From positions 124,001-188,000 of the forward strand of contig JAFKGD010000004.1 of assembly GCA_017307855.1 (NCBI GenBank): a DNA stretch of 64,000 bases. The letters are read 5' to 3'. Origin of the DNA: Burkholderiales bacterium (lineage in GTDB: Bacteria > Pseudomonadota > Gammaproteobacteria > Burkholderiales > Burkholderiaceae_C). The notes below the pieces were generated by a model that was not told the origin of the DNA, did no database searches, and saw only the letters and a list, made by a program, of their open reading frames with translations. Shown here one piece after another: positions 29,486-58,616 of the stretch (position 1 is the stretch's first letter; each line of letters opens with the position of its first letter). A program made the position numbers and the translations under genes.

Positions 29486-29505
29486 AACTGATCAAAAATA
29501 CAGTT
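29486..29505. promoter_or_regulatory. SOS (LexA) box 1
   Basis: AACTG-N10-CAGTT is a symmetric CTG-N10-CAG site, the LexA box pattern of beta- and gammaproteobacteria. It lies between the divergent asparaginase and lexA genes and abuts box 2. Confidence 0.85.
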
Positions 29506-49000: not shown

Positions 49001-49100
49001 CATCAGAAAGCAGCTGCATGTCGGAAGATGCCGTTGAGCGCCCGCGCACTGCAACCAGCCTCGAAGTGCCGCAACAAGGGGTGTCACGTCGAGGAACAGG

Positions 49101-49160
49101 AAAGCCCGCACGCGGCGGGCCTGGAATTGGTCGTGGACTCTTACGCGGCCCACGTTACGG
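49101..49160 (-). repeat. Terminator-linked RNA-like repeat, copy 1
   Basis: The core 49126-49160 matches 51209-51243 at 33 of 35 positions. On the minus strand the core is followed by a GCCCGC/GCGGGC hairpin and TTTCC, and it follows the 64-residue membrane protein gene, so it would lie in that mRNA's 3' region. A perfect 9-base-pair palindrome (49161-49179) lies next to it. Confidence 0.8.
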
Positions 49161-49216
49161 GGCACCCGGCCCGGGTGCCTGACGGCCGTCCCGGAGGATG
49201 CTCGCAAGGGGTCAGG

Positions 49217-49411
49217 TCATGCCATGAAAACAGCAATGAAGGCGAGCAGGAACATCATCGCACCGCCCATGACGGGCAACACGATCGGCATATAGGGAAC
49301 AACTGCCTCGATGGTGTCTTCCATCACGGCTTCGCTGGCTTCGCGTAGATCCGGGTCGGTGTATTCATCCGGGCTTTTGCCATCGTCGAGGTCGCGGTCG
49401 TTGGTTGACAT
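49217..49411 (-). CDS. Small single-helix membrane protein, 64 residues
   Basis: An acidic N-terminal half (MSTNDRDLDDGKSPDEYTDP) is followed by one membrane helix (MPIVLPVMGGAMMFLLAFIAVF). AGGAGA lies 5 bases before the ATG. No named family is recognised. A CCTACG element lies 50 bases upstream and the shared 35-base RNA-like element lies in its 3' region. Confidence 0.75.
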   Translation of the reverse strand: MSTNDRDLDDGKSPDEYTDPDLREASEAVMEDTIEAVVPYMPIVLPVMGGAMMFLLAFIAVFMA

Positions 49412-50882: not shown

Positions 50883-50936
50883 ATTGGACCCCCATTCTTT
50901 GACACCGACAGCATGGAGCAGCGCGCGTGATGCCTT

Positions 50937-50944
50937 CGTAGGAC
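50937..50944 (-). promoter_or_regulatory. GTCCTACG element upstream of the 69-residue ORF
   Basis: On the minus strand GTCCTACG lies 55 bases before the ATG at 50882, at the same distance as other members of the element group. Confidence 0.4.
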
Positions 50945-51027
50945 GCTACCGCGTCACATTTCCAGCCGGTGCCTCGTCCAGCGAACAGCTCGATCTAGGC
51001 GATGGCGAAGTTTTCCTACATGTCGCG

Positions 51028-51118
51028 ATCAGAACTGAACTGACACTCCTCCCTGCAAACCTCCCGCCCTCATCCTCGATGGGGCTTCAGCCCCTTGCTT
51101 CGCGGCAAGGGGCTTTTT
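51028..51118 (+). ncRNA. Candidate small RNA with anti-Shine-Dalgarno-like motifs
   Basis: TCCTACAT at 51014-51021 resembles the CCTACA promoter element, giving a start near 51028. The roughly 90-base transcript would carry CTCCTCCC (51046-51053) and CCTCCC (51060-51065), which could pair with ribosome-binding sites as in CCUCCUCCC stress RNAs, and end in a strong terminator. Start and existence are inferred; the terminator is clear. Confidence 0.5.
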
Positions 51119-51120
51119 CT
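51089..51120 (+). terminator. Strong intrinsic terminator of the plus-strand small RNA
   Basis: AGCCCCTTGC and GCAAGGGGCT (51089-51098 with 51105-51114) form a 10-base-pair stem with a 6-base loop, followed by TTTTCTTTC. No protein gene ends near it. Confidence 0.9.
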
Positions 51121-51175
51121 TTCATCCGAACTCTTATCGGCGCACGGCGAGGTTTCTTCGCGAGATAACCTGCAA

Positions 51176-51204
51176 TGAAGAAAGCCCGCGCAAGGCGGGC
51201 TTTC
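51176..51204 (-). terminator. Intrinsic terminator of the SOS-box transcript
   Basis: GAAAGCCCGC and GCGGGCTTTC (51180-51189 with 51195-51204) form a perfect 10-base-pair stem with a 5-base loop. On the minus strand it is followed by TTCATT, extending a T-rich tract. Confidence 0.85.
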
Positions 51205-51243
51205 GGGGATTGGTCGTGGGCTCTTACGCGACCCACGTTACGG
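51181..51243 (-). repeat. Terminator-linked RNA-like repeat, copy 2
   Basis: The core 51209-51243 matches 49126-49160 at 33 of 35 positions. One difference lies in a loop; the other changes a G-C pair into a G-U pair when read as minus-strand RNA. In both copies a GCCCGC/GCGGGC hairpin follows at once on the minus strand. Confidence 0.8.
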
Positions 51244-51373
51244 CACATTCACATGCAGGAGAACCCGTTTGTTTTTCTCGTCGTGAGTTCTCTGTCGACG
51301 TGCCGCCGTGAGATAACGGCTTGCCTGGCCAGGCACCCGGCAGAGGCTGCAACTGCTTGCCGGCGAAGTGCGA

Positions 51374-51404
51374 ACTATAGCACAAACTGGATATCTGTCC
51401 AGTT
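51374..51404 (-). promoter_or_regulatory. Promoter with overlapping SOS (LexA) box
   Basis: On the minus strand TGGACA (51396-51401) and TATAGT (51374-51379) are separated by 16 bases; each matches the sigma70 consensus at 5 of 6 positions. AACTG-N10-CAGTT at 51385-51404 covers the -35 element and spacer and has the same arms as the first lexA box. Such overlap is the usual arrangement for LexA repression. Confidence 0.8.
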
Positions 51405-51416
51405 GCTCTGAATTCC

Positions 51417-51809
51417 TTAGCGGCATGCCGGTACGGCAAGCCACGCGGCCTCGCGCACCGCGGTCCAGATGGCAGCCTTGCCGCCCAGCGGATGGCGGGC
51501 CTGCTCCATGACGCGGCTCCAGATCTCTTCCATCTTCTCGGGCCGATCGAAGGCACCCACACAATCCGGATGACCGCTGTGCATCACGATCTGATCTACA
51601 GCGCCCTGCAGGTAGCTGGTGCAGACATCCTGCGCGTTCTCGCGCGGGCGCAGAGCGCAGTCATCGACGAACTGCTGGACGGTGGCGGCGTTGACCGGTG
51701 CGGCCACCACGGCGGGCAGGCACGTACCGGCCACACCCAGTGCCAGCAACGCGGTGCGCATGCCACGCACCAACGCGCCATGCAAGAGAGGGGTTCGGGG
51801 TAGGCTCAT
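51417..51809 (-). CDS. Rap1a/Tai-type small exported protein
   Basis: A 130-residue protein with an N-terminal signal segment (TALLALGVAGTCLPAVVAAPVNA) and a mature domain with paired Cys (VQQFVDDCALRPRENAQDVCTSYLQGAVDQI, GHPDC, LAVPAC). This Cys spacing and the final aromatic-Pro-Ala-Cys suit the Rap1a family, known as periplasmic immunity proteins of type VI effectors. No toxin or secretion gene is nearby. The ATG at 51809 or the internal ATG at 51761 may be the start; neither has a clear ribosome-binding site. Confidence 0.68.
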   Translation of the reverse strand: MSLPRTPLLHGALVRGMRTALLALGVAGTCLPAVVAAPVNAATVQQFVDDCALRPRENAQDVCTSYLQGAVDQIVMHSGHPDCVGAFDRPEKMEEIWSRVMEQARHPLGGKAAIWTAVREAAWLAVPACR

Positions 51810-51920
51810 GGAAATTGCAGCGGATCACGGCGAAAAGCCGGGCCCAGAGGATAGGCGATGCGGCCCCGCGCTCCCGGCCCACGCGCCCGATGTACAACGA
51901 CACCATCGAAGGAAACCGAC

Positions 51921-57366: not shown

Positions 57367-58176
57367 TTACGCCGCCGGCGGCGGCACCATCAGCTCCACC
57401 CACGTGGGCGCGTGGTCGCTGGCATGGGCCTCGCCGCGCGCGGCCATGTCCACGCCGGCACGCTTGAGCCACGGGGCCACCACGCCGTTGACCAGGATGT
57501 GATCGATGCGCAGCCCGGCATTGCGCTGCCAGTGCTGGCGAAAGTAGTCCCAGAAGGTGAACAGCTGCTCGTCGGGGTTCAGCGCGCGCAGGCTGTCCGT
57601 CCAGCCCTGCGCCAGCAGCTCGGCGAACACCTCGCGCACCTCGGGCTGCAGCAGCGCGTCACGCCGCCACGACTTGGGGTTGTAGATGTCGAAGTCGGTC
57701 GGCACCACGTTGAAATCGCCCGCCAGCACCACCGGAAACTCCCCCGCCGCCAGTGGCCCCACATGCGCAATCAGCCGCCGCATCCAGCGCAGTTTGTAGG
57801 CGTACTTGGGGCCGGTGATCGGGTTGCCGTTGGGCGCATACAGGCAGCACACCACCAGCCCCTTGACGGCCGCCTGCAGATAGCGCGCCTGGTCGTCGTC
57901 GGGCTCGCCCGGCAAGCGCGTGGCCACCACCAGCGGCTCGCTGCCGCGCGAGAGGATGGCCACGCCGTTCCACGCCTTCTGCCCCACCCAGGCGGCGTGG
58001 TAGCCCTCGGCCTGCAGCTGCTCTTTGGGGAAGGCGGCCTGCGTGGCCTTCAGCTCCTGCAGGCACACGATGTCGGGCTGGGCCTCGCGCAGCCAGGCGA
58101 TCAGGTTGGGCAGGCGCGAGCCAATGCCGTTGATGTTGTAGGTGGCCAGCGCCAGGCGTTTGCGGCGCGCCATCAT
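57367..58176 (-). CDS. xth: Exodeoxyribonuclease III / AP endonuclease
   Basis: A 269-residue base-excision-repair nuclease. Metal and catalytic residues lie in TYNINGIGSR (Asn), LQELKAT (Glu), YAPNG (Tyr), LAGDFNVVPTDFDIYNP (Asp, Asn), LRIDHILV (Asp) and ASDHAPTW (Asp-His). The start at MMARRKRLALATYNI (58176) is supported by the family N-terminus. An in-frame extension upstream is not homologous. Confidence 0.95.
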   Translation of the reverse strand: MMARRKRLALATYNINGIGSRLPNLIAWLREAQPDIVCLQELKATQAAFPKEQLQAEGYHAAWVGQKAWNGVAILSRGSEPLVVATRLPGEPDDDQARYLQAAVKGLVVCCLYAPNGNPITGPKYAYKLRWMRRLIAHVGPLAAGEFPVVLAGDFNVVPTDFDIYNPKSWRRDALLQPEVREVFAELLAQGWTDSLRALNPDEQLFTFWDYFRQHWQRNAGLRIDHILVNGVVAPWLKRAGVDMAARGEAHASDHAPTWVELMVPPPAA

Positions 58177-58202
58177 GCCGCCTTGCTGCCCATGGCGCGC
58201 CC

Positions 58203-58424
58203 TCAATCGGGCTTCTGGGGCGAGCGCGGCTCGTGCGGCCCGGTCGGTTGCAGCGGCGTGGCTTGCGGCTTGATGAAGCCGGCCTGGTTCTCGCCCTTGC
58301 CGGGCGTCGCTTCGTCCTGCTGATGCAAGGGCGCGGCCGGCCTGGCGCCGGTCCCGCCGCCGCCGGCGCTCTTGCGCATGGTCTCGGACGCCATGAACGG
58401 CCAAGTGTTGGGTTTGTAGGTCAT
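58203..58424 (-). CDS. Small hydrophilic protein, 73 residues
   Basis: MTYKPNTWPFMASETMRKSA begins a Gly/Pro/Gln-rich, probably disordered protein that ends PHEPRSPQKPD. AAGGAG lies 8 bases before the ATG and decides the start. It is not recognised. A GTCCTACA element lies 56 bases upstream with GTGACA 17 bases further, as for the gene at 48455-48628. Confidence 0.68.
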   Translation of the reverse strand: MTYKPNTWPFMASETMRKSAGGGGTGARPAAPLHQQDEATPGKGENQAGFIKPQATPLQPTGPHEPRSPQKPD

Positions 58425-58487: not shown

Positions 58488-58616
58488 GACAGTGTCCGGA
58501 CGTGTCACACCTGCCGCCATACCCATGATACTGGACAAATAAACAGTACACGGACACGAGCCATCGCCACGCCTGCTTTCGTTCCGTTGTATCTGACAAC
58601 AGAAACGGCTGCGCCA

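Follow-up and report, generated by a model that had tools for sequence, protein, structure and literature searches.

The window analysed here, a 64,000-nucleotide stretch of Burkholderiales DNA, holds on its minus strand, at 51176-51404, a conserved structured RNA gene belonging to a family whose existence is near certain. The predicted RNA is about 190 nt long, conserved and covarying, and has its own promoter and a terminator-like hairpin; a conserved reading frame was not found in it. Homologues and covariation together argue for a transcript beyond chance. The best explanation of the locus, and the one that we lean towards, is a noncoding small RNA gene repressed by LexA in this genome.

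Promoter, terminator and predicted transcript

A sigma-70-type promoter, TGGACA-N16-TATAGT, occupies 51374-51401 on the minus strand, with the -35 TGGACA at 51401-51396, a spacer of 16 bases and the -10 TATAGT at 51379-51374. By consensus score it agrees with the canonical sequence at 10/12 positions and has in addition a TG ahead of the -10, and transcription would be expected to start near 51367. Between 49000 and 53500 there is one promoter-like site, against 0.8 expected from shuffled sequence, so that the count by itself is no proof. At the other end, the terminator-like hairpin GAAAGCCCGC-CTTGC-GCGGGCTTTC (51180-51204, minus strand) forms 10 perfect pairs around the loop CTTGC; its T tail is weak, which is why it is missing from the list of the terminator scan. 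The single-strand fold beats shuffles (z -2.9), with 2/200 shuffles equally good. An earlier note, made from the letters of this DNA, had described a free-standing stretch bounded by this minus-strand promoter and by a perfect 10-bp terminator, with no convincing protein gene between them, and this description holds at the positions given, the T tail being the weak point. Upstream of the RNA gene lies a 130-aa ORF (51417-51809) without a Pfam hit. Separately, a strong terminator-like hairpin on the plus strand, at 51089-51114 of the window, shows sub-threshold similarity to the sRNA families RF02278 and RF02837.

Homologues and distribution

In a DNA search of 60 genomes, 17 gave some match at E 0.01, many spanning barely more than the terminator, and four strong homologues were found in four other genera (G003, G016, G020 and G023; E 4e-35 to 8e-43). 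The covariance search for homologues proposed in the earlier note was productive: R1, a covariance model of the RNA core built from six sequences, matches 21/299 family genomes and 14/141 genera, a lower bound with 12 candidates scored per genome. An order-wide draw gave R1 matches in 5/399 genomes, all within the same family (again a lower bound, with nine candidates per genome), and in the draw for the genus Polaromonas, with 63 candidates scored per genome, counts are likewise lower bounds. A scan of GTDB contigs with the pattern of hairpin P3 (described below) returned 81 stretches, 80 of which were obtained as loci; R1 matches 78 of the 80, five of them weakly (L056, L062, L064, L071 and L076; E 2e-4 to 5e-3), and the two loci without a match, L075 and L104, were judged by eye to be coding-like sequence. 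Judged by record titles, the RNA is carried by Variovorax, Delftia, Comamonas, Xenophilus, Xylophilus, Ramlibacter, Pseudorhodoferax, Rhodoferax, Polaromonas and Lampropedia, among other genera, and the window's genus is represented by one genome only.

The counts over 81 copies refer to unique full-length sequences, namely 70 from named genomes, 7 from other genomes, 3 viral copies and the window's own, leaving out 13 short or cut loci, a copy near 49 kb in the window and duplicates. Among them, a -10 matching at least 5/6 positions lies within 110 bases upstream in 72/81 (shuffles: mean 6.4, at most 12), and a hairpin with a T tail follows the core in 81/81 by a loose rule applied without a shuffle control.

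Secondary structure and covariation

The conserved core modelled by R1 (51207-51314, minus strand) comprises the hairpins P2, P2b and P3 and is delineated by the covariance model and by covariation. On its 5' side stand, on the same strand, P0 (CCGGCA...TGCCGG, 51337-51363), which was read by eye and left uncounted and whose place is taken, also by eye, by a different stem in many other copies, and the palindromic hairpin P1, TGCCTGGCCAGGCA (51322-51335). A perfect stem before the core is common, with at least 5 pairs immediately 5' of it in 71/81 copies. Within the core, the inner hairpin P2b, GAGAAC/GTTCTC (51259-51292, minus strand), encloses a conserved A-rich loop, CACGACGAGAAAAACAAA, and all 7 of its modelled pairs show two-sided change in some sequences. 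P3, CGTGGGTCGCGTAAGAGCCCACG (51215-51237, minus strand), stands between CCGTAA on its 5' side and ACCA on its 3' side and is paired in 99.8% of cells; its end, CGC-GUAA-GAG, may form a GNRA-type loop above a G.A mismatch, replaced by G.U in some copies.

Across 76 distinct sequences, 90.2% of cells are paired, against 78.4% in shuffled and 26-45% in slid controls, and two-sided changes occur at 17/26 modelled pairs; these pairing counts lean towards the model, the alignment having been fitted to R1, which was itself trained on six sequences. P2 is weaker, with 81.6% of cells paired and two pairs that fail in 28/76 and 35/76 rows.

A LexA-like dyad over the promoter

The LexA-like dyad AACTGGATATCTGTCCAGTT (51385-51404) spans the -35 and the greater part of the spacer. 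Its arms are, as the earlier note says, identical to those of the first lexA box: the exact pattern AACTG-N10-CAGTT occurs both here and upstream of lexA (29486-29505). These are its only two occurrences in the window, and LexA domains were found in the lexA gene product. Motif counts are weak evidence for the dyad. With up to two mismatches, the window holds 22 matches against 12.7 expected, and genome-wide WACTG-N10-CAGTW is not enriched, with 11 sites compared with 10 in the backward control. The stricter pattern CTGT-N8-ACAG, allowing one mismatch, gives 15 sites against 18.7 expected and misses the dyad, whose half-sites are CTGG/CCAG rather than CTGT/ACAG.

A LexA weight matrix is more telling. 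It was made from six hand-picked boxes of this genome, namely five of the 11 WACTG-N10-CAGTW sites plus the second lexA box; besides the candidate itself, the remaining five sites were kept out as GC-rich. The training boxes lie upstream of lexA (two), a gene with a SulA-like match below the Pfam cut-off (21.3 vs 23.1 bits), which we take to be ImuA-like, an S24 peptidase stretch, presumably UmuD-like, a radical-SAM gene and an exonuclease/endonuclease-family gene. In the window, a strong LexA-type box, TACTGGACAAATAAACAGTA (58529-58548), stands upstream of an exonuclease/endonuclease/phosphatase-family gene (57367-58404, minus strand). The dyad scores 20.6 bits, within the range of 14.5-32.0 that the training boxes reach when each is left out in turn, and no non-training site in the window comes within 6 bits of it. 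Simulated sequence of 6 Mb, scored only at CTG-N10-CAG, contains no site as good, and 625,746 positions of other species contain three at or above 20.6 bits (L068, L099 and L108). Of these, the L108 box lies over the promoter of the same RNA in a Polaromonas genome; of the 61 genomes taken from that genus, in a search giving lower bounds, this is the only one seen to carry the RNA. When the stretch from -110 to -20 before the core was ranked in the 81 copies, L108 (20.9 bits) and the window (20.6) were followed by L120 (16.9), a Rhodoferax MAG whose site lies upstream of the expected -35, and then by a copy at 10.4.

The leading alternative is that the same noncoding RNA is expressed without LexA, the dyad being a chance occurrence or the site of another repressor. 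This reading, which is possible though we consider it somewhat doubtful, draws on the 78/81 copies that score at most 10.4 bits, on the lack of genome-wide enrichment and on the failure of the stricter search to recover the dyad. It is opposed by a score that falls among the genome's own boxes and is unequalled in the simulated 6 Mb, and by the equally scoring box that this RNA has in a second genus. The SOS box of the earlier note is upheld in part: it scores like the LexA boxes of this genome and overlaps the promoter, but CTG-N10-CAG is absent from the 160 bases upstream in the four strong homologues. Retention in close relatives, on which that note had staked the box, was thus not observed. 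Since the box is absent in these four, SOS control can be no more than a lineage-specific addition to a widely distributed RNA, and a LexA-type box is no family trait of this RNA. In this genome the box appears credible and LexA control of the RNA is probable; as judged from the promoter sequences, the same is likely for one further lineage, that of the Polaromonas copy, and such control would be a local addition to a promoter that appears unboxed in most relatives.

Genomic context and possible mobility

The surroundings of the RNA vary widely. By DNA similarity, 56 groups are distinguished among the flanks of 79 loci and 27 among those of 33 Variovorax-titled loci (L098 left out); the grouping is by blastn of the 3-kb sides, a method blind to orthologous flanks that have diverged. 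The RNA may move, or else its neighbourhood is frequently remodelled. That it is a phage-derived or otherwise mobile RNA, moving between intergenic sites and serving a mobile element rather than the cell, seems unlikely to us, and the evidence is divided. This diversity of flanks, also within Variovorax-titled loci, speaks for mobility, as does the number of P3 copies, which reaches four in one Comamonas genome; two genomes have two, yet 12/15 have a single one. The flanking proteins are diverse, and the families listed (the top 25 among 115 of 141 proteins from a crude gene caller) are mostly ordinary chromosomal ones. Two integrase families with one member each are among these 25, and mobile-element enrichment of the flanks was not seen there.

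Viral records are similarly mixed. With the window copy as query, none of the 50,697 phage records of INPHARED and a single plasmid record matched, which tells against mobility, whereas nine IMG/VR contigs carry the motif and seven the full core, some of these copies lying among phage-type genes. Three of the seven full viral copies (L147, L149 and L150) are identical to one another and two (L143 and L144) repeat the chromosomal copies L054 and L086, which weakens the viral case; the copies in L143 and L144 may be flank rather than virus. The L086/L144 copy adjoins an integrase gene and, by eye, an apparent tRNA 3' end, in keeping with mobility; no element ends or empty site came to light.

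The short P3 copy and giant phage RNAs

A second, short copy lies 2 kb from the main RNA, at 49100-49180 on the minus strand (R1 E 2.5e-6), and consists of a P2-like hairpin, CCGTAA, P3 and a terminator-like hairpin. It directly follows a 64-aa ORF (49217-49411) and is possibly an RNA module in the 3' untranslated region of that ORF. The ORF has a hydrophobic C-terminal stretch and no Pfam hit.

The P3 module also occurs inside long stretches resembling large structured RNAs, in Alcaligenes (L076, 5370-4880, minus strand), Paenalcaligenes (L062, 5747-5200, minus), a Pusillimonas MAG (L064, 5650-4530, minus) and the phage contigs L146 and L151 (the latter 2470-1480, minus); further giant stretches are L195 (5225-6058, plus) and L245, all ends having been set by eye. 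The L062 stretch adjoins two tRNA genes. A second motif of the giant stretches, GCGGCGGCGTNGAAGG...ACGC, is present in at least 120 IMG/VR stretches. The model R2 was trained on 36 sequences, four of which came from large-RNA loci or phage contigs (L062, L064, L076 and L146). Among 80 viral loci picked by the second motif, its strong P3 hits are confined to L195 and L245 (E 4e-7), where P3 begins 40 bases ahead of that motif; by R2, most loci with the giant-RNA motif lack P3. According to their labels, L195 and L245 are contigs of a single source genome, so that they amount to one or two independent cases. Each has a second P3-like place at E 0.04, the matches in L178 and L247 are at chance level, and L172, obtained via the P3 pattern, reaches E 0.005 with R2.

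The L195 stretch extends up to a tRNA gene, and its fold beats shuffles (z -4.2, 0/20); tRNA genes were present in 12/60 loci scanned. Rfam returned only tRNA-type and low-scoring unrelated hits on the giant stretches, and small parts (6-26%) of L195 and L151, possibly flanks, are similar to records of Bordetella, Alcaligenes and Iodobacter phages. A further module, GCGGCGGCGTNGAAGGNNACGC, is exact in 65/80 viral loci (66 copies), with its hairpin pair being G-C in 51, T-A in 10, T-G in 2 and G-T, C-G and T-C in one each; a 9-nt closing helix follows in 21/66 copies against 17/1300 controls, and part of the 65 loci may be coding chance matches. Such stretches apparently make up a giant type of structured phage RNA that has gone unlisted. 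Another short kind of RNA, GTCGTAAACGTG.ACCGCGCAAGAGTCCACG with a terminator-like hairpin, occurs in L048 and L168, the latter sharing its genome, Pseudorhodoferax soli, with L118.

The sharing of P3 raises the idea that the RNA is a cellular miniature of the giant phage RNA with a connector hairpin CGUAA-P3-NCCA, made alongside damage-induced prophages and disturbing or joining giant-RNA assembly. We regard this as quite improbable: the exact giant-RNA module is found in 1/299 family genomes and is absent from the window's own, leaving the co-residence that such a decoy entails unsupported.

Comparison with known RNAs and systems

Neither in the window nor in 18 loci with relatives does an Rfam 15 family reach its gathering threshold on this RNA, and for the stretch 50900-51850 a search with E up to 10 gave sub-threshold hits only, those on the minus strand with E of at least 3.8; an Rfam riboswitch or leader was rejected for want of a threshold match. 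The genome's only match to 6S RNA (RF00013) lies elsewhere (C9:161025-161205), the alpha-type tmRNA model RF01849, the one tmRNA model searched, is without a match, and the Rfam models of GOLLD and ROOL gave no hit at E up to 1 in the large-RNA loci or up to 10 in the window stretch. A literature search turned up no paper recognised as describing the RNA; the 2017 survey of 224 candidate RNAs was not among its results.

The istR/tisB locus is a LexA-regulated small RNA locus, and the likeness consists in a small transcript under a LexA-type box where an ordinary gene is absent; the window RNA differs in that no conserved peptide was found, the RNA is conserved and structured, and the box is not conserved. 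The analogy drawn in the earlier note is not supported, a conserved peptide being absent from what was found. The 32-codon peptide frame mentioned there has no counterpart in the list of ORFs of at least 30 aa, which shows none of exactly 32 codons here; for the frame tested (51087-51248), the start-ATG context is kept in only 20/81 copies, by which measure no conserved small toxin frame was found and a peptide gene was rejected. An SOS-induced type I toxin-antitoxin or small-peptide locus of the tisB/istR kind, for which the SOS-type promoter and the small transcript would speak, is accordingly extremely improbable given this start-context count and a pattern of change that is that of RNA stems.

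Free-standing trans-acting sRNAs of the Hfq type have in common with the window RNA an own promoter, a terminator-like hairpin and an A-rich loop; the window RNA differs in being long and highly structured, with little gene context common to its relatives, and its Hfq binding is putative. The BRE is described as a short element tied to sRNAs in Bordetella and occurring as a repeat in Comamonadaceae, where 13 copies are counted for Delftia acidovorans SPH-1 and 29 for Polaromonas JS666 (Hot et al. 2011, PMC3110155). In contrast to that many-copy element, P3 is single in two Delftia and two Polaromonas genomes, which are other strains than the published ones, and the BRE was ruled out by copy number only. 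The few giant phage RNAs with the P3 module resemble GOLLD and ROOL, giant phage RNAs too (PMC12286853), in that they can be located close to tRNA genes; the Rfam 15 models of these two match neither the small RNA nor the giant ones.

Proposed function and implications

For the LexA-repressed noncoding RNA that we favour, binding of LexA to the dyad over the -35 and spacer would repress transcription in this genome, a step supported by the matrix score though unproven, and cleavage of LexA after DNA damage would raise the level of the RNA. The gene would work through its RNA, whose likeliest role is that of a trans-acting regulator or a protein-bound RNA. The conserved A-rich loop CACGACGARAAAAACAA, which would be displayed on the rigid P0/P1/P2/P3 scaffold, is a plausible putative Hfq-type site and pairing seed, and we put the trans-acting mode at about an even chance.

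The finding adds a covarying RNA family that Rfam 15 does not match and whose copies stay alike in sequence in changing neighbourhoods. Two lineages appear to have put this RNA under LexA, and the P3 module that it has in common with a few giant phage RNAs offers a concrete handle on such RNAs.
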